Source: an uncultured Mollicutes bacterium
GTDB lineage: Bacteria > Bacillota_I > Bacilli_A > Acholeplasmatales > Anaeroplasmataceae
DNA: 64,000 nt
Direction of reading: 5' to 3'
Assembly: GCA_945923475.1 (NCBI GenBank)
Contig: CAMELE010000007.1
Location: 1-64,000, forward strand
Part shown: positions 30,898-49,602 of the stretch, piece after piece
Numbering within the stretch: position 1 is the first letter of the stretch
How the letters are laid out: each line of letters begins with the position of its first letter
Made by a program: the position numbers and the translations under genes
Notes under the pieces: generated by a model
What the model was told of the DNA's origin: nothing
The model's input: only the letters and a program-made list of their open reading frames with translations
Databases searched by the model: none

Positions 30898-33069
30898 TTA
30901 TTTAATCTTAATTTCCATTAAACCTTCCGCAAAACTGTTGAAATCCTCTGGAGTTAGATTCTTACACATTCTTAATACAAATTTAATTGGTATAAGTTCC
31001 AAAGTCGTACCAGGGTTACGAGGATTATCTCCCGTCAATACATCATATGTAATATTATATGGTGCAAGCCTTTTTAGAACATATTCTTTACCCTTCTCAT
31101 TATTAAGAATATCTTTTACCTTTGAATTTAAGGTAAAGTATCCACTCTTTTCCTTATCAATAAATCCAAGCCAATTTATAATAGTTTTATTATCAAGCTT
31201 ATAGTTTGAATCAGGCTCGTTTACCTTTTTAATTTCAAATGAGTCCTCTAATCCATTTGCTCTAGCTGTGATTATATGGTTTCTACTGATTTTGAAATCA
31301 AATTCGTATTTATATTTTCCTTTTTTTGTTTCAAATAATTTATCATCAATATATAAAGAAACCTCACTACAATTTGAATATACAATAATCTTAGTTCTTT
31401 CTTCAACTCTATTTATATAGTTTTTGTTACAAATATGCACCATAGGATCTTTGTTCCAATGACACTTATATAAATAATACGCATCCTTCTTATATTTTCT
31501 ATCAAATGTTACCAAGCCCTTTTGATTTTGACCAGGCTTTCCACCTTCATTTCTTCCATCAGCCCCAAAATCAAACATGTTCCATATAAATGTACCCCAT
31601 AGATATGGTCTTTCTTCTATGATTTCAAGCATTTGCTCATGATAATAAGCTTGATAATTTTCCGAATAATCTCCTCGCTCAGAATCAAGGCCACAATACT
31701 TCGGATTGCAGTCGGCTCCATATTCAGTAATTCCGAAGCAAGCATTAGGATGCTTTAAATGACGTGAGTCAAAATATTCCTTACAATCACTAACCTTCTT
31801 TTCATACCATCCATAGTAAATATTAATTCCATGAATATCTGGAATATTAAATAGCTTATTTGTATCGCAATTAAATGCACCTATGTGAGCCATTGCTGTC
31901 TTTCTTGTACTATCAAGGCTATGGCATAAGGTATTTAGTTTAATATGATTTATATATCTATCTTCATTTTCATCATTAGAAATACAAATTTCATTACTTA
32001 AGCCCCAGCATACAATTGATGGATGATTATAGTTTTGAACAACTAGCTCCTTCATTTGCGATAAAGTATTTTCAAATCCATTAGCTAAATGCTCAGAGAT
32101 ATAAGGAATCTCTGCCCAAACAATTAATCCTACCTTATCACATAAATCATAGAAATATTGATCATGCTGATAATGAGCTAATCTTACTGCTGTAGCTCCC
32201 ATATCTAAGATTATTTTTATATCCTCCTCCATATCCTCTTTGGATATAGCAGAGCCCTTCTGTGCTTTATCCTGATGCTTAGCAACACCACGAAGTAAAT
32301 ACTTTTTATCATTTAAAATAAAGCCATTATTTGGGTCAAAATCATATTTCCTTACGCCAAAGCTTTGTTCAACTAAATCATCCTTTAATGACACTAAAAC
32401 TTTATAAAGGTATGGATCCTCTACACCATTCCATAGATGAGGATTATTTAGTACAAATGAATGACATGCATAGCCGTTTTTCACCTTTTTACTCACTGAT
32501 TCATCTAGTAAAGTAAATGTAATGTCCATATCCTCACCATTTGTGACATACGCCTCCACCAAAACATTACATATATTTTGATTAAGTGTTGGCGTAACCT
32601 TTATACCATTACCACCAAAATATGATAGACAAATATGTGATTTAGGTACGATTATTAGGTTTACATCTCTATAAATTCCTCCATAGAAGGTAAAATCAGC
32701 TTGCTGAGGATATACTCTATCATTTATTTCATTTGTAACATTAACACATAATTCATTTTCTTCCTTTAAAAGATCTGTTATACGAAATCTAAAGGTAGAA
32801 TATCCCCCATCATGATGGCCAACAAATTCCCCATTAAAATAAACTTCTGCACTATGGTTAGCTCCCTTAAATTCGAGAAATACCTCTTTATTATTTAATT
32901 TATCCTTTAATATAATTTTTTTCTTATAGTAGCATTTACCTCTATAATAATCATTTTTTCCATCTGTTCCATCAATTGCATTCCATGTATGAGGAAGATT
33001 AATTAACTCAAAATTATTATTATTCTTACTGAATAACCAATCGCTATTAATATTTCGTATTTCTCTCAT
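30898..33069 (-). CDS. Glycoside hydrolase family 2 (beta-glycosidase)
   Basis: 723 residues. Sugar-binding jelly roll (1-170), immunoglobulin-like domain, then the TIM barrel with acid/base Glu360 (WGLSNEI) and nucleophile Glu449 (GITEYGA); C-terminal beta domains follow. Family 2 includes beta-galactosidases, beta-glucuronidases and beta-mannosidases; the uronate genes nearby favour beta-glucuronidase or galactosidase activity but the sequence does not decide. No signal peptide, so it works in the cytosol on imported saccharides. Last intact gene of the ABC/sulfatase operon; 13 nt after GH39. Confidence 0.9.
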   Translation of the reverse strand: MREIRNINSDWLFSKNNNNFELINLPHTWNAIDGTDGKNDYYRGKCYYKKKIILKDKLNNKEVFLEFKGANHSAEVYFNGEFVGHHDGGYSTFRFRITDLLKEENELCVNVTNEINDRVYPQQADFTFYGGIYRDVNLIIVPKSHICLSYFGGNGIKVTPTLNQNICNVLVEAYVTNGEDMDITFTLLDESVSKKVKNGYACHSFVLNNPHLWNGVEDPYLYKVLVSLKDDLVEQSFGVRKYDFDPNNGFILNDKKYLLRGVAKHQDKAQKGSAISKEDMEEDIKIILDMGATAVRLAHYQHDQYFYDLCDKVGLIVWAEIPYISEHLANGFENTLSQMKELVVQNYNHPSIVCWGLSNEICISNDENEDRYINHIKLNTLCHSLDSTRKTAMAHIGAFNCDTNKLFNIPDIHGINIYYGWYEKKVSDCKEYFDSRHLKHPNACFGITEYGADCNPKYCGLDSERGDYSENYQAYYHEQMLEIIEERPYLWGTFIWNMFDFGADGRNEGGKPGQNQKGLVTFDRKYKKDAYYLYKCHWNKDPMVHICNKNYINRVEERTKIIVYSNCSEVSLYIDDKLFETKKGKYKYEFDFKISRNHIITARANGLEDSFEIKKVNEPDSNYKLDNKTIINWLGFIDKEKSGYFTLNSKVKDILNNEKGKEYVLKRLAPYNITYDVLTGDNPRNPGTTLELIPIKFVLRMCKNLTPEDFNSFAEGLMEIKIK

Positions 33070-33082
33070 AAGGTCCTCCTTA

Positions 33083-34648
33083 TCATTTTAATCTAACTAA
33101 GTATATATCATTTACAAATAAGCTAAGCTTAAATTTTGTAGTAGAGCCATCATTTAAAAGTTCTAAATTCTTTTGTACTACCATACTTTGTGATTTGATA
33201 GTCTCAACATCACTCTTTGTTAAATACTTTGGCTTACCCATTGCCTCGTATATTGCAAGAGGATTACCAGACTCCTCGGTAATTGCTTCAAAAGAAGCTT
33301 TACTAAATGCTTTATTTAATTTAAATTCAACACAAATTGGATCAAGTTTAAGGTTTTTCATATTTTGTCTTGTTAAAAGAACCTCTACCTCATCACCATT
33401 TTTAAATACCCCGTATGTAATTTCTCCTTCTGTGTCTGGTAAAACATACCTTTCATCTCCTATGCTTGACAGCATACGCATTCCATAATAGGAAGGCTTA
33501 GGTATTCCATTATGGGTTAAAAGTCCAAAACCACCGTGGAATTCCTCATGAAACATATGTAGTTCCTCAAAAATATCTGAAAAACACCATAGTGATGATC
33601 CATCAATTGTATCAGCTATCTTTAATGATGTCATTACAATAAATGCTGGTACCTTTCTCGTATCATTTGTATAAGCACTAAATGTCGCATTTTCATTCCA
33701 TTCTGTATAATATAGTGGAAGATTACCAATTACATTTCGTGTTTGTCTAGAATTAATGATAATTGAATCGTTTCGAATATCCTTTATTTCACTTTTATCA
33801 ATAAAAACATTTCTTAATCCTTCTAATATACTTCCACTTTCAACATTCTTTAATAAATCCGGATTTGCAAACGGACTTACAGATGGCTTTTCCTCCTTTA
33901 GCTCCAAATTGTTACCATCAATATTACCAATTGGATCTCCTGCATATTGATGTGTTGTAATAAAATCTAAAGGTAGATTGTTCTTATGAACAAACTCAAG
34001 GAACTCATTAATCCATTTAGATCCTGAGGTTGAGGGACCCCCAACTAGAATATTAGAATCAACTGACTTAATCGCTTTAACAGTTATTTCATATAAATGG
34101 AAATAGTCCTCCATTGAGCCACCAAAGAATACAATTAGATCTGGTTCATTCCATACCTCAAATAGCCAAGATTCAACCTCTTTTTTACCATATCTATCGA
34201 TTAAGAAATGAATAAAGTCTTTGATGAATGCACTCCACTCATCATCATCTTTAGGCATACATGAATATGACTCAGAGCCGTAATAAAACATTACATGCTG
34301 ATTTAAATTTTTAGCAAGATGCTTTGGCATAAAGCTTAGCTCAACTAAAGGCTTCATTCCAGCTGCTAACACATTATCATATACCTCGCCACAACGAGAA
34401 AAATTTATATCCTTGAATCGATCAGAGCCTGGAACAGGAATAATATCTGAAAGTTTTCTTACAACATTCATATCATCTGAAAAAATACCATGAAAACGAA
34501 CTCTTTCAATTCCTAAGGTATCGTGAATAAATTTTAACTGTTCACAATAATCCTTCCTAAGGGCTAAAGGAGCATGCCCTGAGCCAATACAAAACTTGTA
34601 ATGCTTGTTAAATTTCTTAGTTTCCTTCAATTCAACATTAATTTTCAT
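33083..34648 (-). CDS. Glycoside hydrolase family 39
   Basis: 521 residues. TIM barrel with acid/base Glu168 in FEVWNEPD and nucleophile Glu316 in YYTEWNEN, then a beta-sandwich. GH39 contains beta-xylosidases and alpha-L-iduronidases. In a locus with a sulfatase and uronate enzymes, iduronidase-like activity is attractive but unproved. It has no signal peptide. Starts 10 nt inside the end of the sulfatase gene. The AraC regulator at 44071 carries a related GH39 domain without these two Glu residues, suggesting the regulator senses the substrate of this enzyme. Confidence 0.9.
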   Translation of the reverse strand: MKINVELKETKKFNKHYKFCIGSGHAPLALRKDYCEQLKFIHDTLGIERVRFHGIFSDDMNVVRKLSDIIPVPGSDRFKDINFSRCGEVYDNVLAAGMKPLVELSFMPKHLAKNLNQHVMFYYGSESYSCMPKDDDEWSAFIKDFIHFLIDRYGKKEVESWLFEVWNEPDLIVFFGGSMEDYFHLYEITVKAIKSVDSNILVGGPSTSGSKWINEFLEFVHKNNLPLDFITTHQYAGDPIGNIDGNNLELKEEKPSVSPFANPDLLKNVESGSILEGLRNVFIDKSEIKDIRNDSIIINSRQTRNVIGNLPLYYTEWNENATFSAYTNDTRKVPAFIVMTSLKIADTIDGSSLWCFSDIFEELHMFHEEFHGGFGLLTHNGIPKPSYYGMRMLSSIGDERYVLPDTEGEITYGVFKNGDEVEVLLTRQNMKNLKLDPICVEFKLNKAFSKASFEAITEESGNPLAIYEAMGKPKYLTKSDVETIKSQSMVVQKNLELLNDGSTTKFKLSLFVNDIYLVRLK

Positions 34649-36239
34649 TCTTTTTCTCCTTATTTAAGCTCAAAATATAGTTAATACAAGCACCGAAGGA
34701 AGCTCCAGTATTAATAAAAGACTTAACCTTATCCTCATCTGCTGGCCTCACCATTCCCTGAAGCTTCGACCAAATCATAGTTTTTGTGAATCTTGCATCA
34801 TACTCAAATGGTACTATATCTGCCGTACGCTGAAGCCATTTCATTAACTCGTATTGCATTTTTATAATTACATCCTTATATTCTTCTTTGTCAATGACGT
34901 TAACTGTTTCATGTGGGTCTTTTGATAAATCATATAATTCATCTTTTGTTTTTGATCTGCTAATATATTTGAAATTATAATCTCGAATCATTATACCCTT
35001 ATCATGAAGATCATCAAATGATTGTGCCATTTTTTTAGGCCAATAAGCTGAATTAGGATTGGGATCAGCATGATATTCATCACAGTGAACTTCTCCAGCC
35101 TCTCTTCCACCTTCACAAAATACATATTCTCTTGCCTTTTCATTCTTACAAGCTATATTTTTCACTAAGCTTCTACCAAAATGGGTATGATTTGGTTTAA
35201 CCTGTGCCATATCCATTGCAGTAGCATAGAAATCAATTAGTTCAACAAGATTATCATTTACACCAGGATCGATTTCATAGCCCTTTGGAGGTTTAATCAA
35301 GAATGGTACTCTTGTTAGACAATCCTCAAAGGAATTTTGGCACTTTTCTACTAATGAATAGTCACCAGCAAAGTCGCCATGATCAGAGAAAAAGAAAATA
35401 GCAGTATCATCATAGATTCCAGCATTCTTTAAAGCATTTACTAATCGACCAAACTGATTATCAATTTTCATACACATACCTAAATAAGTAGCACGAATTT
35501 CATTCCATTCATCCTCAGATAAGCCATCCATAGCACAATATGAACGAATTTTATCCAAAATTGGGGCCTTATTCTTACAATCCTCAGGCTTGATGCGCTT
35601 TAAAAGCTTATTTCTATCAATTGCACTAAAATATGGATTTTCTACCTGATATGGTACATGAGGATAGAAAAGCCCCAAAAACATGCATAAAGGCTTATCA
35701 TCCTTAGGATTAAGAATTCTTTCAATACATGCGTCTACTACTTCATCATCACTATTATATTGAAGCCCATCACTATCAAGCTTAAGTTCTCCCTCATAAT
35801 GTGAATATTTATATTTTGAATCTAAATGATAGTTATTTAAGGGTTCACCTCTTCTTGCAATTCTACTATTATAAAAAATCTCATTAGCATGACTCTCAGT
35901 CCAACCATCAATTTGTCCTGCAGTAAGATCATTTCGATCATTCATCCATACGTAGTATCCTCCCTCCTTTAATTCCTTTAAGATTGAATCCTCACCAGGA
36001 TGAAGTAAGTATGACATTGTTCTATGTCCTCTTGTATGAGGATATAATCCTGTCATAAAGCTACATCTTGAAGGAACACATACAGGATTCTGACAAAACG
36101 CATGAGAAAAAGACACGGCATCATTTTCAATTATAGCATCAAGATTTGGTGTAATAGCTGCTGGATTTTGCATATGAGACATTGTATCCCAACGCATTTC
36201 GTCAGGATTAAAAATAATAATATTAGGTCTTTTCTTCAT
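34638..36239 (-). CDS. Sulfatase (type I, formylglycine-dependent)
   Basis: 533 residues. NPDEMRWDT metal ligands at 11-19, then the modification site CVPSR at 54-58 (Cys type, so matured by an anSME, which is encoded at 49603). Other ligands include the SDHGD segment. S1 family enzymes remove sulfate from sugars of glycosaminoglycans, mucin or algal polymers. Lack of a signal peptide indicates cytosolic action. It lies between the HAD phosphatase and the GH39 gene; the released sulfate would need export (TauE). Confidence 0.93.
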   Translation of the reverse strand: MKKRPNIIIFNPDEMRWDTMSHMQNPAAITPNLDAIIENDAVSFSHAFCQNPVCVPSRCSFMTGLYPHTRGHRTMSYLLHPGEDSILKELKEGGYYVWMNDRNDLTAGQIDGWTESHANEIFYNSRIARRGEPLNNYHLDSKYKYSHYEGELKLDSDGLQYNSDDEVVDACIERILNPKDDKPLCMFLGLFYPHVPYQVENPYFSAIDRNKLLKRIKPEDCKNKAPILDKIRSYCAMDGLSEDEWNEIRATYLGMCMKIDNQFGRLVNALKNAGIYDDTAIFFFSDHGDFAGDYSLVEKCQNSFEDCLTRVPFLIKPPKGYEIDPGVNDNLVELIDFYATAMDMAQVKPNHTHFGRSLVKNIACKNEKAREYVFCEGGREAGEVHCDEYHADPNPNSAYWPKKMAQSFDDLHDKGIMIRDYNFKYISRSKTKDELYDLSKDPHETVNVIDKEEYKDVIIKMQYELMKWLQRTADIVPFEYDARFTKTMIWSKLQGMVRPADEDKVKSFINTGASFGACINYILSLNKEKKNEN

Positions 36240-36291: not shown

Positions 36292-37134
36292 TTAAGATGA
36301 CTTTAAATTATTTTTAAAAGCATCAACTAATTCCTCTTGGTGCTCACCAATAGTATTATTGTCAAAATTATCAATATAGCTTAATGATTTTTCCCAAGAT
36401 TCCTCCTCATGCTTACAAACAATCGGATAGAAATATACACCATTTACAAATGCTGCATCTAGATCTCCCGGGCTATCACCAATCATTACAACATTGCTAG
36501 CTTTATAGCCCTTGAACAATAATGATTGAATACATAAAGCCTTTGTACCATCATGCTGACTGCAAAAGCAATCAACATAATTTAAAATGCCAAGGCGCTC
36601 CCATTCCTTCCAGATTGCATCAAAGTTAGCGCTTGATACAACTGCAATATTGGCAAATTTTGCTAGACTAGCTATACTTTCCTTAACATTCTTAAATAAG
36701 CCAATATCTTTATCAGGAATTGCCTTAATTCTTCTATTAGTTTCTACACTCCATTTTAAGCACATATCTAATAGCTTTGATGGATGCTCATTTTTATACT
36801 CTATTAAAGCTTCATTACTAAAAGCCTTTGTTTGATTGCAAAAACAGTCAAAATCTTCAATATTTTCAATTCTTGTAAAATTATCATTGCAATAATGAAG
36901 AGCCATATTTAAGCCCTTAAAGCGATTAATCCCACGAGTCATAGAATACAGATTAATTCTCATCCATTCTGCTAGCATTTCATCTCTGTATTGAGTTAAA
37001 TCAAATGTATCAATTAAAGCAGGCCCAAATGCAAGTTTATGCTTTACTGTCATAGAATCAATCGCACATCCATCAGAATCTATACAAACTAAATATTCCT
37101 TTGTCTTCTGAAAAGATTGTATGCTCTTACTCAT
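36292..37134 (-). CDS. HAD family hydrolase (phosphatase-like), first copy
   Basis: 280 residues. Nucleophile motif CIDSDGCAID (Asp19, Asp21), motif II VVSSAN and the C-terminal VVMIGDSPGDLDAA. Class I HAD with a helical cap, most like phosphoglycolate/beta-phosphoglucomutase types. The ATG at 37134 has AAGGAGGGG; the frame opens at 37236, within the GH3 gene. A paralogue sits at 46566-47390. It follows the GH3 gene by 13 nt. Role: perhaps dephosphorylating a sugar intermediate of this pathway; unknown. Confidence 0.85.
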   Translation of the reverse strand: MSKSIQSFQKTKEYLVCIDSDGCAIDSMTVKHKLAFGPALIDTFDLTQYRDEMLAEWMRINLYSMTRGINRFKGLNMALHYCNDNFTRIENIEDFDCFCNQTKAFSNEALIEYKNEHPSKLLDMCLKWSVETNRRIKAIPDKDIGLFKNVKESIASLAKFANIAVVSSANFDAIWKEWERLGILNYVDCFCSQHDGTKALCIQSLLFKGYKASNVVMIGDSPGDLDAAFVNGVYFYPIVCKHEEESWEKSLSYIDNFDNNTIGEHQEELVDAFKNNLKSS

Positions 37135-37147
37135 AGGTATCCCCTCC

Positions 37148-38890
37148 TTATAATCGTGTATCCCAACGATCACAGAATACATTATCCTGTGCTTTACCTT
37201 TAAATTTACTCTTTCCTTGCATTTTCTCAATTGCAATTCTTATATGCTCTCTTGTTGGAGCATAGGCATTAACTAATGTATGTACCTGTGGGAAATCAAT
37301 TAAATGGTTTGTATAGTTTAAGCTCATCGCAATGGTAGGAATTTCCTCGTTATACCATGGCATTTCCTTTGAATGATTGCAGCTCCATTTAATTCTAACC
37401 CAGTTTTCCTGAGCGTACCCCTTTACATTAAATACTACTAATGCAAAATCATATTTTTTCTTAAAATCCTCGCATGCTCCCTTGTCCATCATCTTAAGTG
37501 TGTTCATGTAGCTTGGACCATTTTTAATTTCAAGGTCATGAAATGAATCAAGTGCGTCAACCACGAAGCCAGCTCTCTCTAATTCCTCAATTACAACCTG
37601 TTTGGTCGCATCTCCATTATATGCTTTAGTAACTGGACTCGATCCAACATATACTAAATAGCATCTTTTCATATTAGATGAGAGTGGTAAGTATCCTCTT
37701 GTATCCTTAACAAGGGTAATACAGTCCATAGCAGCATCTATCGAATATGACTTGTGCTCCTCACACCCAATACATTTTAATTTTTCTTCAGTTGGAATCA
37801 ACATTTCAGGCTTATATAGGTGAAGATGAGCCTTTAATGCAAGAATTCTTGTAACCGCATCATTTAATCTTTCCATAGATAATCTACCATCAGCAATGGC
37901 TGCTTTAATATATCCTATATCTTCCTTTTGATCATTCATGAATAAGAACATATCGCATCCTGCCGCAATTGCTCCAGGTACATATTCACTTCTTTTAGCT
38001 ACTGCAGCCATACCAATCATATGAGAGGCATCGGTAATAATAAGTCCATTAAATCCCATATCATTTCGAAGCAAATCAGTTAATAGCTCTGGCGATAATG
38101 TAGCAGGCTTAATATCCTTATCTAAAATTCCTGGGCGAAGCTTTTTTGACATTTGAGGAAGGGCAATATGACCAACCATAATTGCTTCTAAGCCGTCATT
38201 AATTAAGTTTCTGTATACATAGCCAAAACTTTCCTCCCATTCGTTAACAGATAAATTGTTAACTCCGAGAGCTAAATGCTGATCTAGTTCTTCAACCCCA
38301 TCACCTGGGAAATGCTTAGCAGTTGCAGCCATATTAGGATTAGCATCCTTTACTCCCTTGATGTATGCTCTTGCACATTCCAATACTTTTTTTGGATTAT
38401 CAGAAAATGATCTAGTGTTTACAATAGTATTTCGCCAGTTTTTATAAATATCTACAACCGGGTTAAACATCCAGTTGGCACCAATTGCAGAGGCTTCCCT
38501 TGCAGCTACTAAACCAACATGATATGCATGCTTTGTATCATCTGAAGCACCACATTCAACAGCTGTAGCTACAAATGTACCATTTGGTACTGCACCATTA
38601 CCACCATCATCACAATTAACTGCTATAAGCTGAGGAATCTTTGATAACCTTTGAACAGTTTTATTTTGCAAATAGGCACCATTCATATCTTGGTTTTGCC
38701 AACGCCAACCGCCGTTATGGACGGAATCGATAATTCCTTTTATTTGAGATTCATCTACTCCAGGATTAGCCTTTAAAACAACAAATAGCTGTCCAATCTT
38801 TTCATCAAGCGTTAAAGAGCTTAAAGTATCCTCAACCCATTTAACTTCTAAATCATTTAAATAAAATGGTTTTTCTTTTAGATTTATCAT
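37148..38890 (-). CDS. Glycoside hydrolase family 3 (beta-N-acetylhexosaminidase-like)
   Basis: 580 residues. KHFPGDGVEELDQHL and nucleophile Asp287 in IITDASHM resemble the NagZ-type GH3 enzymes, where a His in the KHFPGxG loop is the proton donor. The C-terminal alpha/beta domain (from about 390) is present. Such enzymes release terminal hexosamines or glucose. No signal peptide. First enzyme gene after the transporter genes; a hairpin (38974-38993) lies between it and the permease gene, possibly stabilising or attenuating the upstream message. Confidence 0.88.
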   Translation of the reverse strand: MINLKEKPFYLNDLEVKWVEDTLSSLTLDEKIGQLFVVLKANPGVDESQIKGIIDSVHNGGWRWQNQDMNGAYLQNKTVQRLSKIPQLIAVNCDDGGNGAVPNGTFVATAVECGASDDTKHAYHVGLVAAREASAIGANWMFNPVVDIYKNWRNTIVNTRSFSDNPKKVLECARAYIKGVKDANPNMAATAKHFPGDGVEELDQHLALGVNNLSVNEWEESFGYVYRNLINDGLEAIMVGHIALPQMSKKLRPGILDKDIKPATLSPELLTDLLRNDMGFNGLIITDASHMIGMAAVAKRSEYVPGAIAAGCDMFLFMNDQKEDIGYIKAAIADGRLSMERLNDAVTRILALKAHLHLYKPEMLIPTEEKLKCIGCEEHKSYSIDAAMDCITLVKDTRGYLPLSSNMKRCYLVYVGSSPVTKAYNGDATKQVVIEELERAGFVVDALDSFHDLEIKNGPSYMNTLKMMDKGACEDFKKKYDFALVVFNVKGYAQENWVRIKWSCNHSKEMPWYNEEIPTIAMSLNYTNHLIDFPQVHTLVNAYAPTREHIRIAIEKMQGKSKFKGKAQDNVFCDRWDTRL

Positions 38891-39009: not shown

Positions 39010-40029
39010 TCAGCTGGTTAAGCCACCCATATCTTCCTTTTGTTTCTTTCTAAAAATCTTTTTTAGCCATAATTTTACATACATAACTATCTGATCCCAG
39101 AAGCCTGAAATGAAGATAAATATTGCTAAGAATACTGCATAACAAATAGTCTTAACGCCACCACTTATACCATTTGAATCTAAACCACAATATAATAATT
39201 GAATTGATAATGCACCAATAAGTGTTCCAAAATTACCATCAATAAATCTAGATAGGAATAATCCAAATAATGATGGAATAATATTACCAAATAAGGTGCC
39301 TGCAGTTGAAAGTGGAACAGTTATCGGATTAATGAAATTAGATACTGCATATAAAGAAGCAGCCAAACCAAATATAACTCCAGAAACCGCATAACAAATA
39401 AGCGTATTTTTAACCTCGTTTATACCAATATTTACTGCAGAACTTTGGTTTTTTGCAAGCAACGAAGCTTGTCGACCCGCAACGGTAAACCTCTGGAAAA
39501 CAATACATATAGCAATAGCCAAAATTAATGGTACAATTACCAATGCAGATTTATAAAGCACTGCAATTGATGATTCTTGAATATTTATTGTATCAGAAAC
39601 TAGAAGTCCTGATAAGGATTCAAGTAAGAACGTCGTTCCTAAAGAAATTACTGCAATCGGTACGCGAACCTTTATATAAATTAGACCATTGAGTAATGAA
39701 GCTATAACCGCAACAACAATACAAATTAGCATAAAAGGGAAAACACCTATACCTGTTGCAACATGTATTTTTGTCGCAACAATGGCAGCTATGATTGTAA
39801 TTGCTCCTCCAGAAAAGTCAAATCTACCATATCCTAATTGAAAGCCAATACCCAATGCGATAATTGCCATATATGAAGTTTTTCTTAGAAGAATGGCAAA
39901 TGTATCTGGGTTAAAAATATTGTAACTATTATTATTTGCAGTACACACAATTAGCATAACTAAATAAATTGCTACAGGCATGAAGAATATTGCCATTAAT
40001 TTTTGAAATATTGTTTTCTTCTTACTCAT
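39010..40029 (-). CDS. ABC sugar permease (RbsC-like), second permease
   Basis: 339 residues with eight to ten membrane segments of the BPD_transp_2 family (GLGFQLGYGRFDFSGGAITIIAA and the LLAKNQSSAVNIGINEVK cytoplasmic loop that docks to the ATPase). It pairs with the permease at 41251. Two different permeases in one unit are expected for a heterodimeric channel. It follows the substrate-binding protein gene by 38 nt. Import of a sugar or oligosaccharide is inferred. Confidence 0.88.
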   Translation of the reverse strand: MSKKKTIFQKLMAIFFMPVAIYLVMLIVCTANNNSYNIFNPDTFAILLRKTSYMAIIALGIGFQLGYGRFDFSGGAITIIAAIVATKIHVATGIGVFPFMLICIVVAVIASLLNGLIYIKVRVPIAVISLGTTFLLESLSGLLVSDTINIQESSIAVLYKSALVIVPLILAIAICIVFQRFTVAGRQASLLAKNQSSAVNIGINEVKNTLICYAVSGVIFGLAASLYAVSNFINPITVPLSTAGTLFGNIIPSLFGLFLSRFIDGNFGTLIGALSIQLLYCGLDSNGISGGVKTICYAVFLAIFIFISGFWDQIVMYVKLWLKKIFRKKQKEDMGGLTS

Positions 40030-40067: not shown

Positions 40068-41216
40068 CTATTTTAATTTATTTAATACATACTCATTTGT
40101 CCAAGATTCTACTAAAGCTACAAGATCCTTATCAGGTGCACCTACTAATGCTTTAGCTTGTTCAAGTGTGAATAACGCATTTGCAAATGAATGCTGTGAA
40201 TCCATAGTAATTAGCTTAGTTTTAGCTGCAGTTAGTTGAGAAGCCTTAGTGAAATATATATAATTACCAACAGCAATCTTTTCATCAACAGGAATTGGAT
40301 CTGCACCATTTACAGCATTAATAATACGCATTAAAGGTAAGATAATTGAATCAGCTGGTGCACTACCTTCACAACGTAGTTGCTTATCCTCACCAAACTG
40401 GGCATCATATGTTGAATCATAACCAACATTATATAAATGAACAGATGGGTCTAAGTTAGGCATAACATACTTAGCAACAGAGTTTACTGCAACAATTGCG
40501 TCTACATTCTGAGCCTTTAAATTAGCCTTTTCAGTATCAGCTAAAGGACCAAATTTACAAGTCCATGTATCAGTATGATCACTGAACTCACCATATGTGA
40601 ATTGATCATCTGGGTGATCAACATTCCACTTAGTAACTAATTCTTTAAATCTATTTAAAGCGTCAGTTACCTTAGGGAAGAATTGAGATGAGAATGATCC
40701 TAAAACAATCTTACGATCTGTTGAAGCAGAAATAGCATTAAATAAGCTTTCTCCTCTTAATCCCCAGTCATATTCACCATCAGTAACTCCACCTAAGAAA
40801 TATTTGCTATCTCTTACTTCAGGAGTCTTCATAGCATTTGTCATTTCTTGCTTATATCCTACATAGTAGCATCCTGCATCCTCACAATTTTGAATTAATT
40901 CCTTAGCTTGAGCTGCATCTAGGTCAGCCATTGAAATAATTCCATTGAATCCCATACTTAGCTTTTCATTATAAGTATTTAAATTGGCAACAGAATCTCT
41001 CGAATTTAATAAAACCTCCTCATAAGTAAAGTTTAATTCATCCTTTAATGAATCCAAAATGCTTTCTACAGCTAATGTATTAGCATCTCCTTTTTGTTGA
41101 AGTCCAAGCAATATTTTAGCTTGTTTTGTTCCTCCATTTCCGTTACAAGATGCTAGCGTTAAACCAGCAACTCCAGCTATTACAGCTGTACTTAAAATTT
41201 TACTAATTTTTTTCAT
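40068..41216 (-). CDS. ABC transporter sugar-binding lipoprotein
   Basis: 382 residues, signal peptide with lipobox LASC, then a periplasmic-binding-protein fold of the type I (peripla_BP_4/ribose-like) class. Regions such as MGFNGIISMADLDAAQAKELI and YNVGYDSTYDAQFGEDKQ fit. It captures the substrate outside the cell and delivers it to the two permeases. The likely ligand is a sulfated or uronate-containing saccharide, from the enzymes in the same operon; the sequence does not show it directly. Confidence 0.87.
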   Translation of the reverse strand: MKKISKILSTAVIAGVAGLTLASCNGNGGTKQAKILLGLQQKGDANTLAVESILDSLKDELNFTYEEVLLNSRDSVANLNTYNEKLSMGFNGIISMADLDAAQAKELIQNCEDAGCYYVGYKQEMTNAMKTPEVRDSKYFLGGVTDGEYDWGLRGESLFNAISASTDRKIVLGSFSSQFFPKVTDALNRFKELVTKWNVDHPDDQFTYGEFSDHTDTWTCKFGPLADTEKANLKAQNVDAIVAVNSVAKYVMPNLDPSVHLYNVGYDSTYDAQFGEDKQLRCEGSAPADSIILPLMRIINAVNGADPIPVDEKIAVGNYIYFTKASQLTAAKTKLITMDSQHSFANALFTLEQAKALVGAPDKDLVALVESWTNEYVLNKLK

Positions 41217-41250: not shown

Positions 41251-42273
41251 TTAACGAGGAAGATATTCCTCATTAGTTCTACATGTCATTGATACAATTA
41301 CCAAGAAGATAATTGCTTGAGTAATTAGAATAAAGCTTGGCGGTACACTACAATATGACATACCTGTACTAATCAAGTTATATGTTAAGCATCCAACAAT
41401 GGAACCTGATAGCCTTACTCTCATACCACCTTTAAGAGGAACCCCTCCCATTAGTAGCATAATCATAATATCCATTTGGAAATTTTCTGTTGCAGCAAGT
41501 GGCATAGACTTCGATCTACCAATTAGGAAGAATGCACAAATACATAAGAACACTGAGAACACTGCATAGCAGGACATTCTTGTTATTAATAGCTTTGCGC
41601 CTGCTTCATTAGCAGCTAGCTTATTTGCACCAATTGCTCTTGCACGTTTTCCAATTTTCGTATAATTTAGAACATACGTTGCAGCTATACATAATACTAC
41701 AATCACAATAATTACATAAATTTGATTTTCAGCCCATGCAAATCTTGCAGCAATATCTGAATTAGTAATATCAACACTTGTTCCACCGAATTTATCTTGA
41801 ATCAATGTAGATATACCCGAGAACAATTGCATCAAAATAACTGATGACATTACAGCCGGCAGCTTAACATATGCTCCAATAGTTGCATTAAACATTGCAC
41901 ATAGAATACCAATAACAATGATTGTTCCAAATGCTAAAAATATACTTCCGGTTGCATTTAATATTACGACAAATATAGCTCCATATACTGCGGTTTGATA
42001 ACCTACTGAAATATCAATTGAACCCATTGAATAAATAAATGTGGCTCCAATACCAACAATTAGAAGGGGTGTAATCTTCTTAACAAAATTTCTTAATGGA
42101 ACCTTGTCCCAAATTGAAACACCATTAATAATTGGAGGTAGGATGCTAAATACAATTAAGCATATAACGAATCCTAAATATGCTGCAAGTTCAAACTTAT
42201 GTAGCAGGATAAAATCTTTAATTAATTTTCGATTAAATTTGCTTTTTGGTTTTATTTCTTCGCTTTTTTCCAT
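41251..42273 (-). CDS. ABC sugar permease (RbsC-like), first permease
   Basis: 340 residues, about nine membrane segments; GIGATFIYSMGSIDISVGYQTA and the IGANKLAANEAG coupling loop match RbsC-type permeases. Starts 12 nt after the ATPase gene, so coupled. Forms a transporter with the second permease, the lipoprotein and the double ATPase. Confidence 0.88.
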   Translation of the reverse strand: MEKSEEIKPKSKFNRKLIKDFILLHKFELAAYLGFVICLIVFSILPPIINGVSIWDKVPLRNFVKKITPLLIVGIGATFIYSMGSIDISVGYQTAVYGAIFVVILNATGSIFLAFGTIIVIGILCAMFNATIGAYVKLPAVMSSVILMQLFSGISTLIQDKFGGTSVDITNSDIAARFAWAENQIYVIIVIVVLCIAATYVLNYTKIGKRARAIGANKLAANEAGAKLLITRMSCYAVFSVFLCICAFFLIGRSKSMPLAATENFQMDIMIMLLMGGVPLKGGMRVRLSGSIVGCLTYNLISTGMSYCSVPPSFILITQAIIFLVIVSMTCRTNEEYLPR

Positions 42274-42284
42274 TTTTGCACCTC

Positions 42285-43802
42285 CTATAGCATGTACTCA
42301 ATAATATCAGTTTGCTTAAGGTCCTTTGATCTTAAGAATTCCTTTACTACCTTTGCTTCCTTGTTTTTTTCAGCCATAATAAGAATTCTATCTGCCATAC
42401 CAATTAGTTCAGTTAGCTCTTCACTTATTAGCAGTATTGCTTTTCCTTCTTTTTTCATTTGATTGATTATGCCATACATTGCTTGCTTAACGCTTACGTC
42501 TACTCCACGTGTAGGACAATCCATAATAATCACATTTGCATCACAAGCTGTCCATTTGGCAAAGGAAACCTTTTGCTTGTTACCACCAGATAGCTTAGAA
42601 ACATACGTTTTTTTACTATAGCATTTAATAGATAAATTCTTTATTTGTTGATCAACAATTTCATTTTCTGTTTTAGGATTAATAAAACTAAATTTACTTA
42701 TTTTATCTAATGAAGGAAGTAAAATATTTTCCTTAATAGGTGCATCTAATATTAATGCTTCTGTATCACGATTTTTTGAAATGTAACCAACATTATTATT
42801 GATTGCTTTATTTGGAGAGGTGATTTTAACTCCATTACCTATAATCTCACCAGATTCAGGTTTTCTTACTCCAAATGCTAGCTGACCGACAAGATGAATA
42901 CCACAATCAGATAGTCCACCAATACCTACAATTTCACCTCGATGAACCTCTAGGTTAAAATCTTTAATATTACGATAATTTACATTTTTAAACTCAAGAC
43001 CAACTTCAGGTAAGCTAGATGGCTCAAAATCATCGCGGAAATATGCATCACCAATATCTCTACCAACCATTAATGTTGAGATAAGTTTTGCATCATATTG
43101 GTCCTTTGTTAAGGTATCAATAATATCGCCATCTCTTAAGACTGTTAAATGAGTACATTTATCCATAATTTCGTCTAGATCATGTGAAATAAATACTACT
43201 GCTTTTCCATTTGCTGCCATTTTATTGATTAAATCATATAAAATTTCGCGTCCTTCATGAGACAACGCTGTAGTTGTTTCATCTACTACAAGAATTTCAG
43301 GATCCTTTTCTACTGCTCTAATGATTTCAATAAGTTTTTTTGTTTCAAAGCCGAGCATATCAATAGGAGTATTTCCTTTAAAATTTGTAATATTAAACCT
43401 AGCAAGAATCTCATCTGCAGCCTTATACATCTTTTTCATATTAATAAAGCCATACTTTGAAAATTCTTTTTCTCTACCCGCAAACAAATTTTCTGCTACA
43501 GTTACATGTGGAATTGTATTTGATTCCTGAAGAATCATCGCAATACCAGCATTTTGTGCTTCTAGCATTGTTTTTGGACTCCAAGGCTTTCCCTTGTAAA
43601 ACATTTCACCTGAAGTAGCACCTTGCATTCCAGCCGCAATTGACATTATGGTCGATTTACCAGAGCCATTTTCGCCGATTAAACCTCTAATTTCACCTCG
43701 ATGTAGAGTAAAATCTACATCCTTTAGAGCAATCGTAGGACCATATTCCTTATGCATATGCTTCGCTTCAAATAATAATTCACCAAAACTTGTATTTTCC
43801 AT
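42285..43802 (-). CDS. ABC sugar transporter double ATPase (RbsA/MglA-like)
   Basis: 505 residues with two ATPase cassettes. The first has Walker A GENGSGKST (43-51) but a degenerate signature (TPIDMLGFETK); the second has a degenerate Walker A region (GGLSDCG) and a canonical signature KLSGGNKQKV. This split of intact sites is usual in RbsA-type proteins. The ATG at 43802 has GGAG upstream; the frame opens 39 nt earlier. First gene of the operon, driven from the promoter at 43864-43892. Confidence 0.92.
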   Translation of the reverse strand: MENTSFGELLFEAKHMHKEYGPTIALKDVDFTLHRGEIRGLIGENGSGKSTIMSIAAGMQGATSGEMFYKGKPWSPKTMLEAQNAGIAMILQESNTIPHVTVAENLFAGREKEFSKYGFINMKKMYKAADEILARFNITNFKGNTPIDMLGFETKKLIEIIRAVEKDPEILVVDETTTALSHEGREILYDLINKMAANGKAVVFISHDLDEIMDKCTHLTVLRDGDIIDTLTKDQYDAKLISTLMVGRDIGDAYFRDDFEPSSLPEVGLEFKNVNYRNIKDFNLEVHRGEIVGIGGLSDCGIHLVGQLAFGVRKPESGEIIGNGVKITSPNKAINNNVGYISKNRDTEALILDAPIKENILLPSLDKISKFSFINPKTENEIVDQQIKNLSIKCYSKKTYVSKLSGGNKQKVSFAKWTACDANVIIMDCPTRGVDVSVKQAMYGIINQMKKEGKAILLISEELTELIGMADRILIMAEKNKEAKVVKEFLRSKDLKQTDIIEYML

Positions 43803-43863
43803 ACGAATCTCCTTTCCTTCATAATGTTGATAAAAAATCATATTAACTTCTTTTTACACCTAA

Positions 43864-43892
43864 ATTATATAATCTTATGAAAGCGTATCCAA
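43864..43892 (-). promoter_or_regulatory. Promoter of the glycan-utilisation operon
   Basis: Minus strand TTGGAT (43887-43892), 17-nt spacer, TATAAT (43864-43869). Confidence 0.65.
43877..43891. promoter_or_regulatory. Catabolite-responsive element (cre) overlapping the operon promoter
   Basis: Plus strand ATGAAAGCGTATCCA matches the cre consensus WTGNAANCGNWNNCW at every defined position and covers the -35/spacer, so CcpA would repress the operon. Confidence 0.65.
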
Positions 43893-44008
43893 TTCGATTT
43901 CTTTTCTTTTTTTTATCATTTTTTTCTTAAATTTATATACATTTTTTTGTTATAAGAGCTTAGCTGATAAAAAAACTCATTTTTTTGCTTTATATTCTGT
44001 AAAACTTC

Positions 44009-44036
44009 TTGATTATACTCAAAAAAATGCTATAAT
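44009..44036 (+). promoter_or_regulatory. Promoter of the AraC-GH39 regulator gene
   Basis: TTGATT (44009-44014), 16-nt spacer, TATAAT (44031-44036), 35 nt before the start codon. Confidence 0.6.
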
Positions 44037-44070
44037 TAGCTAAAGAAAACTTTTTTTCAGGAGGTAAAAT

Positions 44071-46533
44071 ATGATTGGTTCAAAACTTGAAGCCATTAAT
44101 TTTATTGGCACATTACCTTATAGATGCATACTCTATGAGCCATATGCTACAAGAAGACATTATCACAATGAAATATCTATTTTTTTACTTATAAAAGGGC
44201 AAGCCGAAGTAATTGTTGAAGATAATCATTATGTTCTTAATGAAGATGATGTTATTCTTATTAATCCTCTTGAATCCCATGAATTAATTAGTGGATTGGA
44301 ATCCTATGGTATACTTCTTCAATTTGATCCAAAAAAATTCTATATTTCTAAAAATATTCATTTCAAGCATTTGATAAATGATACTACCGATTTGGACTTG
44401 CTATATCAACTTAAATCAATAATTTATACTGTATTTAAAAACTGTATTGAGAATAAATATTTTAATAATATCAGAACAATTCACGATCTAATAGCTATTC
44501 TTTTTGAAAATTGCCGCGAGCTTGAGTCTTTTGAAAGAAAGGTCAATAAGCATCAAGCCCGTATTGATGAAATTGCTGAATATATTGAAAAAAACTATTC
44601 TAAACGTATTACTTTACAGGAGCTTGCTAGTAAACAAGCTTTATCTATAAGCTACCTTTCAAATTTCTTCGAAAAGAATTTTGGTAAAACATTTCTTCAA
44701 TACTATAATGATATAAGAATTGACCATGCAATTGATGATCTTTTAAATTCTAATTTTTCAATTGACGAAATATCTTTAAGAAATGGCTTTGATGATCCAA
44801 GGTCATTTGTTTCAGCGTTTAAGAAAAGATATCATATTTTACCGAGTATATATAGAAAGAAATCTACATCAAGGCTGATGAAGGATAAGCTAAAAAACGA
44901 AAATGAAATTGATATAGATAAATTATCTTATATTAAAGAAAAATTTAATACTTTTTTAATTGATAAGCCAACATTATCTTCCGAGTTTATTAGCCCAGCT
45001 CCAGAAAAATTGATTGAAATTAATAGTTTGGATATTACAAAGCAAGGTACTCCATTTAACAAAAACTTTAATCATGCAATTGGAGTAGTTTCTGCTCATG
45101 ATATGCTCTTAGGTGATGTTCAATCAATGCTTATAAGAGCTAAAAAGGATATTAATTTTAAATATGTTAAATTTCATGGTATATTATCAGACGAAATGGA
45201 AGTTTATAACGAATCTCCTGATGGAGAGCCAATCCTAAACTTCTTCTTAATTGACAAGGTTCTAGACTTTATACTATCTATATCGATGAAGCCAATTATC
45301 GAGCTAACTTATATGCCAAGCCTATTAGCACTACATCCAAAGAGGTATTTATATAACAATAAATGCATTGCATCCGAACCAAAAGATTTAAACAAATGGC
45401 AGCATTTTATTGAAGGCCTTCTTGAGCACATTATATCTAAATATGGTGAAAACGAAATAAATACCTGGTATTTTACAATATGGAATTTACCCGAAAGTGG
45501 CACCTCCTTCTTAGGATTTGATTCAGATCAAAGATTCTTCGAATTCTACTTAAAAACATATAATTGTATAAAAGGATATTTACCAGATTCCGTTATGCTA
45601 TCCCCAACCATTGGACTAAGCCCAGGAAATCCTAGTGAGTTTTTTTCTAATTTTGTTGAGTTTTGCTCAAGCAATGATTGTATGCCTGATATAATTAACG
45701 TAACATACTCAAATGAAATATTTCAGATGATTGGAGATATGAATACCATTCAAACCACAGCATTTTTTAAAAAGAATCCTGATGCCTTATTAGAAGCAAC
45801 TAATAACACAATTAGTTTCTTTAAAGAAAAAAATATAAATGCGCCAATATTCCTTTCAACATGGATGCTTACATCCTCTCATAGAAATCTAATAAATGAT
45901 ACAGTCTTTAAATCCTGCTATTATGTTAAAAATTACCTACAGGTTCATGATAAAATAGATTTATTTGGACTTTGGTGTCTAACTGATCTTAATGGTGAGT
46001 CTCCACTTAATCCATCACTTTTTTATGGGGGACAAGGAATGCTCACAAAGCGTGGTATAGAAAAGAGCACCTATAATGCACTAATTCTTCTTTCAAAGCT
46101 AGGTAAAGAAATTATTTATCAGGATGAAGGAATATTAGTTACAAGATCCTATAAAAAAATTCAAATTCTATTGTATAATTATCAGCATTATTCTGATTTA
46201 TATGCTGAAGGCAAAATTACACTTGAGGCAAATAATCGTTATATTCCTTTTGACTTATCAAAAAAACATCGATATAAAATAGTTTTAAATAATATAACCT
46301 CAGATAAGGTGTTTATTAAAACATATACTGTCTCACAACAGCATGGCTCTAGTTACGATGCATTTTTAAGAATGGGTGGAGTAGAGTTAAAATATGATGA
46401 TGAATTTGATCATTTACAAAGACATTCAAGCTACTATATTGAGGTTGAAGAACAAAAAACAGTAAACAACACTATTACAATCAATAAAATCGTTCCTGTT
46501 TTAGGAATTTATCTAATTGAAATCAAGCTATAA
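44071..46533 (+). CDS. AraC-type regulator fused to a catalytically altered GH39 domain
   Basis: 820 residues. A cupin-like N-terminus (LPYRCILYEPYATRRHYHNEIS..., residues 1-130), two AraC HTH motifs (about 165-268), a linker, then a GH39-like barrel plus beta-sandwich (about 330-815). The segment TIWNLPESG replaces WNEP, so the acid/base Glu is Leu473, and FLSTWML replaces YTEW, so the nucleophile is Thr597. The enzyme fold is therefore probably a ligand sensor. The neighbouring GH39 keeps both Glu. Divergent from the ABC/sulfatase operon, which it probably activates; it starts 268 nt from the ATPase gene. Confidence 0.92.
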   Translation: MIGSKLEAINFIGTLPYRCILYEPYATRRHYHNEISIFLLIKGQAEVIVEDNHYVLNEDDVILINPLESHELISGLESYGILLQFDPKKFYISKNIHFKHLINDTTDLDLLYQLKSIIYTVFKNCIENKYFNNIRTIHDLIAILFENCRELESFERKVNKHQARIDEIAEYIEKNYSKRITLQELASKQALSISYLSNFFEKNFGKTFLQYYNDIRIDHAIDDLLNSNFSIDEISLRNGFDDPRSFVSAFKKRYHILPSIYRKKSTSRLMKDKLKNENEIDIDKLSYIKEKFNTFLIDKPTLSSEFISPAPEKLIEINSLDITKQGTPFNKNFNHAIGVVSAHDMLLGDVQSMLIRAKKDINFKYVKFHGILSDEMEVYNESPDGEPILNFFLIDKVLDFILSISMKPIIELTYMPSLLALHPKRYLYNNKCIASEPKDLNKWQHFIEGLLEHIISKYGENEINTWYFTIWNLPESGTSFLGFDSDQRFFEFYLKTYNCIKGYLPDSVMLSPTIGLSPGNPSEFFSNFVEFCSSNDCMPDIINVTYSNEIFQMIGDMNTIQTTAFFKKNPDALLEATNNTISFFKEKNINAPIFLSTWMLTSSHRNLINDTVFKSCYYVKNYLQVHDKIDLFGLWCLTDLNGESPLNPSLFYGGQGMLTKRGIEKSTYNALILLSKLGKEIIYQDEGILVTRSYKKIQILLYNYQHYSDLYAEGKITLEANNRYIPFDLSKKHRYKIVLNNITSDKVFIKTYTVSQQHGSSYDAFLRMGGVELKYDDEFDHLQRHSSYYIEVEEQKTVNNTITINKIVPVLGIYLIEIKL

Positions 46534-46565: not shown

Positions 46566-47390
46566 TTAGCTTAAACATACCTCAAATTTATTTAATAGTT
46601 CTCTTTGAAAATTATCATCAAAGTTCCCACTAATTAGTCTTGGGTACACGATATTATAGAATTCATCCCATGATTCATTTTCATGACCAGGGATTATAGG
46701 ATATACCCAAATGCCAGCTGCCTTGGCAGCCTTGATATCAGCAAATGAATCGCCAATCATTATGGCATTAGTTTTAAGATATCCATTTTTTAATGCTTCC
46801 TTTATAACATATTCCTTTGTACCATATTCCTGGCTTGCAACAAAATTAAAATAGTCATATATTCCTATTGATTTCCATTCCTTCGTTAATGCTTTTTTAT
46901 TTGCAGTTGAAACCCCAAGCAAATCTGCTTTTCTAAGCTTTAATATAATCTCTCTTGCATTTTCAAAAGGAGCTGCATTAGGCAACATTGATATTCTTTC
47001 ATTACATAGTAATGCCCATTTTTTAGCTAATTGAAGACAATTTGAGTTAACTATTTTTTCAATTCTTTGCTCAAGAGAAGGGATTGACAACGACAATGTC
47101 TCCTGAACCCATTTATGGTACTCATCAAGACCAGCATATTCGTATCCATATTCTTTAACTTTACCCAGAATTATATCAAGGGTTATAAATCGGTTAAATC
47201 CTCTTTTTGAGCTAAAGCAATTTAAATTTATCCAATCATTTAAGATTTCGTTCTTATGATTAGATATATTAAAGACCTCTATAAAAGAAGGTCCTAAAGC
47301 ATATTTGTGCTTTAGGATCATTGTGTCCATTACAGTTCCGTCACTATCAATGCAAATTAGAAAATCATTCTTTTTTTCTAATTTAATCAT
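46566..47390 (-). CDS. HAD family hydrolase (phosphatase-like), second copy
   Basis: 274 residues, paralogue of the protein at 36292-37134 over its full length: nucleophile CIDSDGTVMD (Asp15, Asp17), then HKxALGPxxIxxF and the FNRF segment, and the final NAIMIGDSFADIKAAKAAG. The ATG at 47390 has AGGAG; it is 5 nt after the SDR stop. Last gene of the uxu-like operon. Having one copy in each operon suggests a shared step, such as dephosphorylation of a pathway intermediate, but the substrate is unknown. Confidence 0.83.
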   Translation of the reverse strand: MIKLEKKNDFLICIDSDGTVMDTMILKHKYALGPSFIEVFNISNHKNEILNDWINLNCFSSKRGFNRFITLDIILGKVKEYGYEYAGLDEYHKWVQETLSLSIPSLEQRIEKIVNSNCLQLAKKWALLCNERISMLPNAAPFENAREIILKLRKADLLGVSTANKKALTKEWKSIGIYDYFNFVASQEYGTKEYVIKEALKNGYLKTNAIMIGDSFADIKAAKAAGIWVYPIIPGHENESWDEFYNIVYPRLISGNFDDNFQRELLNKFEVCLS

Positions 47391-47394
47391 AGTA

Positions 47395-48243
47395 TTATAC
47401 TCCTGAATAGCTTGAAAAACCACCATCAATTGGTATACAAACACCTGTTACAAAGGATGCTGCATCAGGTGAGCATAGGAATAATGTTGCACCTACTAAA
47501 TCATCAACAACACCAAATCTTCCCATTGGTGTAGCAGCTAAAATCTTACCAGTTCTAGCTGTTGGTGTTCCATCAGGATTCCATAATAGCTTTTCATTTT
47601 GCTTTGTTGAAAAGAAGCCTGGCGCAATTGCATTTACTCTAATTCCTACATGCGAGAAATGAACAGCTAACCATTGTGTGAAATTAGAAACAGCAGCCTT
47701 TGCTCCTGAATATGCAGGAATTTTAGTTAATGGTGTATATGCATTCATCGAAGAAACGTTCAAAATTGAGCAATCCTTGCGACCAATCATATCCTTTGCA
47801 AATACCTGAGTAGGTAATAATGTACCTATAAAGTTTAGGTTAAAAACAAACTCAACACCTGCTTGATCCAAGTCAAAGAAGGTCTTCATTTCCTTTAAAT
47901 CATCACCAAGCTCAGCATATTCATTATCAGTAGTTGCTCTTGGGTTATTTCCACCAGCTCCATTAATTAAAATATCACATTTGCCAAATTCCTTTAGTAC
48001 CTCTTCATGACATTTTTCCAATGATTCTTTAATTAACACATTTGCTTCAAAGCCCTTAGCAATACCACCTTCTGCAACAATTATATCAGCTTGTGCTTGT
48101 GCGGATTCCTTCTTTATATCCAATAAAGCAACCTTTGCACCACATGCTGCTAAAGCTTTAGCTAAATGTGAGCAGATAACTCCACCAGCTCCTGTAACAA
48201 CCGCAACCTTATCCTTTAAATTTATTTCAAATGGTAATTTCAT
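47395..48243 (-). CDS. uxuB: SDR oxidoreductase, D-mannonate/fructuronate type (UxuB-like)
   Basis: 282 residues. Rossmann TGAGGVICSHLA, the NGAGG strand, catalytic Ser and YSGAK, and a C-terminal IPIDGGF typical of short-chain dehydrogenases. The longer loop after NGAGGNNPRATT and position beside uxuA match the B. subtilis YjmF-type D-mannonate oxidoreductase, which reduces fructuronate with NAD(P)H. 14 nt after the uxuA stop. Symbol assigned by context plus similarity; a sorbose or gluconate dehydrogenase role remains possible. Confidence 0.8.
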   Translation of the reverse strand: MKLPFEINLKDKVAVVTGAGGVICSHLAKALAACGAKVALLDIKKESAQAQADIIVAEGGIAKGFEANVLIKESLEKCHEEVLKEFGKCDILINGAGGNNPRATTDNEYAELGDDLKEMKTFFDLDQAGVEFVFNLNFIGTLLPTQVFAKDMIGRKDCSILNVSSMNAYTPLTKIPAYSGAKAAVSNFTQWLAVHFSHVGIRVNAIAPGFFSTKQNEKLLWNPDGTPTARTGKILAATPMGRFGVVDDLVGATLFLCSPDAASFVTGVCIPIDGGFSSYSGV

Positions 48244-48257
48244 AATAATCTCCTTTT

Positions 48258-49382: not shown

Positions 49383-49602
49383 TTCGTTTTCTTTACTAAT
49401 ACGTTGCAAATTTTCTCCTTTCCCATAAAAAATTTTATCATAAAAACATATCTTTTATCAAAGAAACTCACTTTTTTACTATTTGTGTATTATTAAGGAG
49501 CATTATAGTACATTTTTTTGATGTTTTATTTTAAAGTTTCTATATAATTTGATTTTCAATTTTAAAAATAGTAAAATGAAATTAATAAAAGGAGATATTT
49601 TC

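Follow-up and report, generated by a model that had tools for sequence, protein, structure and literature searches.

An AraC-type regulator fused to a GH39 barrel without its catalytic glutamates, most likely a pseudoenzyme sensor for a divergent sugar operon

Glycosidase domains reused as sensors are already known in a few cases, among them RsgI6 of Clostridium thermocellum, whose GH10 domain, of very low activity, binds its polysaccharide (PMC4711584). A second regulator of interest here is AryK of Staphylococcus aureus, which influences toxin expression as well as central metabolism (PMC3922988). A search of the open-access literature, with subscription papers outside its scope, found no description of AraC-GH39 regulators as such. 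Here, we analyze one of these regulators, encoded in a 64,000-nucleotide stretch of DNA from an uncultured low-GC Mollicutes bacterium (hereafter, the window). Most likely, the protein is a sensor-regulator without catalytic activity that controls the operon divergent from it. Its architecture is not unique to the window: AraC-GH39 proteins form a large, barely studied regulator family; most members have an intact enzyme part, which in others has been disarmed, repeatedly and probably for use as a sensor of sugars. The original prediction saw only the window; a complete active site is kept by the majority of related proteins with this architecture.

The gene is an intact open reading frame preceded by a strong ribosome-binding site (GGAGGT, 44060-44065), and its product combines the following domains:

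44071..46533, + strand: open reading frame of the 820-aa AraC-GH39 fusion regulator
44143..44298, + strand: AraC_binding/cupin domain, residues 25-76 (Pfam PF02311, 29.3 bits, cut-off 21.1)
44623..44859, + strand: HTH_18 DNA-binding domain, residues 185-263 (Pfam PF12833, 71.1 bits, cut-off 33.6)
45028..46446, + strand: GH39 domain, residues 320-792 (Pfam PF01229 Glyco_hydro_39, 182.9 bits, cut-off 26, E 1.3e-53)

All three domains score above their curated cut-offs, bearing out the predicted fusion of an AraC regulator to a GH39 domain. Both hallmarks of AraC/XylS proteins, the double helix-turn-helix of HTH_18 and an N-terminal ligand-binding cupin, are present, and the score of the C-terminal half places it in the GH39 sequence family. 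The order of cupin, HTH_18 and GH39 barrel, together with the length, matches the pattern of the AraC-GH39 fusions (about 800-850 aa). The RsgI N-terminal anti-sigma domain has no Pfam match in the protein.

Two positions set the GH39 half apart from an active glycosidase:

45487..45489, + strand: Leu473 at the acid/base position (Glu160 of GsXynB), from phmmer and a 104-sequence alignment
45859..45861, + strand: Thr597 at the nucleophile position (Glu278 of GsXynB), from the same two sources

When phmmer aligns the GH39 half (residues 328-818) to the Geobacillus beta-xylosidase GsXynB (1w91, 2bs9), the WNEP motif that carries Glu160 falls on WNLP and the TEY motif that carries Glu278 falls on STW. 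A separate alignment of 104 sequences, comprising 89 fusions and 15 stand-alone GH39 proteins, gives the same result at both catalytic columns and confirms, residue for residue, the substitutions originally proposed (WNLP for WNEP, STW for TEW). Neither the acid/base glutamate (WNEP) nor the nucleophile (TEY/TEW) is present, and leucine and threonine are incapable of acid/base or nucleophilic catalysis. The original prediction had allowed that the catalytic glutamates might lie elsewhere in the domain; a shift to a nearby site was rejected, as the 104-sequence alignment offers no candidate and places no acidic residue next to Thr597. Glu475, two residues past Leu473, is no substitute because in intact homologs an acidic residue occupies that position alongside the catalytic glutamate. 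Judged from these alignments, the protein is almost certainly unable to hydrolyze a glycan.

The loss of catalytic residues is not accompanied by loss of the fold. An AlphaFold model built from 46 sequences has a mean pLDDT of 86.9 (in the GH39 half, most 10-residue blocks reach 90-98) and contains the GH39 barrel plus a beta-sandwich. The top Foldseek matches of this half are GH39 xylosidases (2bs9, E 1e-40, TM 0.87 on the target), in agreement with the earlier claim that the barrel landmarks are kept. In the model, Leu473 lies just past the strand 467-469 and Thr597 at the end of the strand 593-598, a predicted placement that agrees with where a clan GH-A barrel has its acid/base and nucleophile. 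The gene is not a decaying one, since its frame is intact and the protein retains 42 of the 56 positions that are near-invariant in intact-site fusions.

Upstream of the regulator, on the opposite strand, lies a presumed target operon that spans 43841 down to 30898:

43842..44070, no strand: intergenic region with presumed divergent promoters (sequence inspection)
42285..43841, - strand: sugar ABC ATPase, first divergent gene of the presumed target operon (Pfam)
41251..42273, - strand: BPD_transp_2 permease (Pfam)
40068..41216, - strand: putative substrate-binding protein (no Pfam match; homologs at the equivalent place in related loci)
39010..40029, - strand: BPD_transp_2 permease (Pfam)
37148..38890, - strand: GH3, phosphorylase-like (Pfam; 5vqd, beta-glucoside phosphorylase BglX, 3.4e-105)
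36292..37236, - strand: HAD-like hydrolase (Pfam)
34638..36239, - strand: sulfatase (Pfam and homology)
33083..34648, - strand: stand-alone GH39 with both catalytic glutamates, WNEP and TEWN (Pfam and the 104-sequence alignment)
30898..33069, - strand: GH2, beta-glucuronidase-like (Pfam and homology)

The original prediction described an adjacent GH39 with both glutamates, under the control of its disarmed relative. The intact enzyme exists, although it is not adjacent, lying ~9.4 kb away and deep in the divergent cluster; that the regulator controls this operon we infer from the layout, because a divergent sugar ABC importer beside a regulator is the standard arrangement, and on that basis such control is highly likely. 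A search for an operator in 43842-44070 returned nothing convincing, the region being too A+T-rich and promoter-like matches occurring at chance level. The GH3 protein is the usual partner of AraC-GH39 loci, and its nearest PDB relative is the phosphorylase BglX; therefore, the pathway may be phosphorolytic rather than hydrolytic. On the other side, genes for a HAD hydrolase, an SDR protein and the mannonate dehydratase UxuA (46566-49295) point toward the regulator's 3' end, with UxuA at 48258-49295 and an anaerobic sulfatase maturase at 49549-50742. By gene content, the sulfatase, its maturase, the beta-glucuronidase-like GH2 and UxuA would be consistent with a sulfated uronide as the substrate, in line with the original prediction.

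The reading that we favor, though by a modest probability, is that the protein is a one-component regulator of the divergent operon with the dead GH39 barrel as its sensory half. Acting as a cytoplasmic sensor, it would bind a glycan imported by the divergent ABC importer, or a product of the operon enzymes, in the former active-site cleft or close to it. Ligand binding would rearrange the GH39 and AraC halves and switch the AraC domain, whose helix-turn-helix would act at the divergent promoter region, most likely as an activator. Of the parts of this scheme, glycan binding by the GH39 half appears somewhat probable, and the chance that the ligand is drawn from the operon's own substrate seems about even.

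Whether the old cleft could still hold a sugar depends on the residues around it. The -1 subsite residues of GH39 enzymes and their roles were taken from PMC7242879 (His54, Asn159, Glu160, His228, Tyr230, Glu278, Trp316 and Glu324, Geobacillus numbering) and transferred to the fusions by sequence alignment. Besides the catalytic pair, the window protein has:

45175..45177, + strand: His369, retained (His54; alignment)
45484..45486, + strand: Asn472, retained (Asn159; alignment)
45703..45711, + strand: Thr545 and Ser547 in place of the pocket residues His228 and Tyr230 (alignment)
45973..45999, + strand: Trp635 (Trp316) and Glu643 (Glu324), sugar contacts retained (alignment; roles from PMC7242879)

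Thus, four of the eight mapped residues are altered (Leu473, Thr545, Ser547 and Thr597), so sugar binding at the old -1 site is not assured. With threonine and serine at the positions of His228 and Tyr230, the subsite is remodeled and not merely disarmed; the pattern, as read from the alignment, would fit a remodeled binding site better than simple disarming.

Across the family, each of the eight subsite residues is kept in 53-55 of the 55 non-redundant fusions that have both glutamates, and most of these DNA-binding regulators therefore conserve a complete glycosidase active site. The 26 non-redundant fusions with catalytic loss keep Glu324 in 22 cases, Trp316 and Tyr230 in 19 each, Asn159 in 11 and His228 in six. 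A comparison over 54 near-invariant columns besides the catalytic pair found a retention of 0.60 for the six non-catalytic pocket columns in these fusions versus 0.81 for the 48 others (one-sided p 0.009, with rows that are not independent); thus, loss falls mainly on the pocket and leaves the scaffold in place. This apparent pocket-specific change is a property of the whole fusion set, as the window protein's own counts are too few to carry it: this protein retains four of the six pocket residues outside the catalytic pair and 38 of the 48 remaining near-invariant ones.

The same numbers bear on a different assignment of roles within the protein. In AraC itself, the sugar is sensed by the cupin domain, and the cupin could be the true sensor here instead, with the GH39 barrel as an oligomerization or scaffold module whose active site is free to drift. 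We regard this as unlikely, but it keeps some weight: the AraC_binding domain exceeds its Pfam cut-off in the window protein, and the stronger retention of scaffold than of pocket in fusions with catalytic loss is what such drift would leave. Many GH39 enzymes are, moreover, oligomeric, helped by a C-terminal extension (PMC7242879). However, a mere scaffold has no need of the near-invariant -1 subsite seen in intact fusions, nor of the sugar-contacting tryptophan and glutamate that persist in 19-22 of the 26 fusions with catalytic loss. The cupin is also less conserved than the GH39 half, with a mean identity of 0.14-0.35 versus 0.23-0.42 among the rows listed.

How the disarmed site arose can be followed in the wider family. 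A scan of 85,000 species genomes by profile search with five sequences recovered about 70 further AraC-GH39 fusions among its best 80 loci, hosted by Lachnospiraceae, Butyrivibrio, Paenibacillus, Clostridium, Halanaerobium, Treponema and others; the non-redundant set comprises 81 fusions from Bacillota and Treponema. Viral contigs searched for relatives of the window protein yielded none. Both glutamates are kept in 60 of the 89 aligned fusions and in all 15 stand-alone enzymes, while 29 fusions show a loss, of the acid/base only in 17, of the nucleophile only in four and of both in eight. The figure of 29 probably underestimates loss because similarity, together with patterns derived from conserved sites, guided the choice of loci. 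Some regulators (L012, L013, L018 and L021) carry glutamine at both catalytic positions, and glutamate to glutamine is a near-isosteric exchange and a laboratory route to binding-only glycosidases. The window genome itself holds one stand-alone GH39 and one further AraC-GH39 fusion, on another contig (C9, L121:8416-10863); this second regulator has lost the acid/base to valine (WNVP) and kept the nucleophile (TEF), and is likewise divergent from a sugar ABC ATPase. Elsewhere, a GH39-like frame of 345 aa (L047:14555-15589), ~5 kb from an intact-site fusion, resembles the tail end of another fusion.

A 95-row tree separates the 81 non-redundant fusions, as a single clade, from 14 stand-alone GH39 enzymes (SH-aLRT 96); in it, the window protein lies inside a 44-row fusion set (SH-aLRT 100), and the window's stand-alone GH39 groups with sister-genus enzymes (100). 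The idea that the regulator's GH39 half is a disarmed or recent copy of the operon enzyme was rejected, as the two fall in separate clades. This qualifies the earlier picture of a former enzyme turned sensor, which stands as regards the loss of both glutamates in an intact fold. The deepest fusion branches have intact sites, and at least 10 changes between the intact and lost states are needed on this tree. A more careful tree of 40 rows, built without L076, leaves the window protein unresolved within a 28-row clade (99/97), joined neither by the Gln/Gln nor by the Val/Ala lineages; its branch is long (2.06, with 0.63 as the median), as could also result from relaxed constraint. A grouping with L076 in a quick tree was treated as a likely long-branch effect.

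Gene neighborhoods add a further layer. Among 54 intact-site loci, 28 have a divergent sugar ABC ATPase next to the regulator, and the usual order after this gene is permease, binding protein, permease and GH3; the window matches this layout from 43841 to 37148 and extends it with the HAD, sulfatase, GH39 and GH2 genes. Within the window's own family, the divergent ATPase is present in nine of ten regions (all but L125), whatever the catalytic state. Four regions of a sister genus (L117-L120) have a matching operon, with identities to the window of 72-76% for the ATPase, 37-41% for GH39 and 38-41% for GH3. In this family, both glutamates are lost where the operon carries its own intact GH39 (Leu/Thr in the window, Gln/Gln in L117-L120), whereas fusions at loci without a stand-alone GH39 are intact or short of the acid/base only, a link to which at most two lineages contribute. 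Among named loci, GH3 is nearby in 35 of 54 intact fusions versus two of 17 altered ones; the associations with catalytic state (Fisher p 0.00017 for GH3 and 0.00004 for the divergent ABC ATPase) are only suggestive because the loci share descent.

From this distribution, one can imagine that the ancestral fusion was an enzyme-regulator that destroyed its own inducer, and that the window protein lost hydrolysis after its operon gained a separate GH39 that made this step of the regulator dispensable. The intact majority, the intact deep branches, the repeated state changes and the coincidence of double loss with a stand-alone GH39 would all follow, but that coincidence is supported by two lineages at most, the activity of the intact fusions is presumed from sequence, and the catalytic glutamates could be retained for binding alone; we consider this history quite improbable. 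A broader version is doubtful as well, in which AraC-GH39 proteins are a widespread enzyme-regulator class whose intact majority cleaves its own inducer as a self-reset, pseudoenzyme sensors arise repeatedly on enzyme gain or substrate change, and AryK-type proteins stand at the extreme end. The long terminal branch and altered pocket might hint at a GH39 half that has become a relic with no function, in a regulator heading for loss, but this is very improbable given the intact 820-aa frame, the confident fold, the conserved scaffold and the conserved place beside an ABC operon. The sensor reading, by comparison, is favored by the intact fold, the retained His369, Asn472, Trp635 and Glu643, the conserved divergent layout and the intact-site deep branches.

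The AraC-GH39 family displays the transition from full site through single-residue losses to complete loss many times, beside a similar sugar importer. The series allows a direct test of whether the regulator's enzyme activity matters in signaling, and suggests where the C-terminal half of the AryK-type regulators of staphylococci and Listeria, so far unexplained, came from.

The closest precedent is RsgI6, where, as in our reading of the window protein, a glycosidase domain is reused as a sensor for transcription control; RsgI6, however, is a membrane anti-sigma factor with its GH10 domain outside, whereas the window protein would be a cytoplasmic AraC-type one-component protein. GH39 beta-xylosidases (1w91/2bs9, 1px8) share the fold and many scaffold residues with the window protein but have the catalytic residues that it lacks, and in the window protein the barrel is fused to a DNA-binding regulator. 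Fusions of the type of WP_152403625.1 from Paenibacillus cellulositrophicus, annotated as 'helix-turn-helix domain-containing protein', have the same domain order, length and clade and often lie beside a sugar transporter and GH3, as in the window; the majority keep both glutamates and the -1 subsite, whereas the window protein lacks both glutamates, His228 and Tyr230. The L117-L120 regulators, like the window protein, have lost both glutamates and face a divergent ABC operon with an intact GH39, GH3 and HAD, but both positions are glutamine (WRQP, and TQY or AQY), the identity to the window regulator is ~28% and the lineage is separate.

AryK and the Listeria regulator WP_014601238, distant relatives from pathogens, also join an AraC part to a C-terminal region that derives from GH39 and lacks the nucleophile (NWN); they are far more degenerate than the window protein and lie beside an M20 peptidase gene, not a sugar ABC operon. 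The Listeria gene (L128:2515-4857), between inlJ and the peptidase gene, has a degenerate site (FFEP, VNWN), with Asn at the nucleophile position and a Pfam GH39 match at 9.5e-9. A staphylococcal relative (L127) with the NWN motif, also beside an M20 peptidase gene, is broken into several frames in the copy at hand and was inspected in pieces; we infer that it is AryK. Against the NCBIfam AryK model, the window protein aligns in two stretches with 171.5 bits (2.6e-50), far under the model's cut-off of 850. AryK would be a degenerate relative of the AraC-GH39 regulators, an assignment made less surely than that of the Listeria protein.
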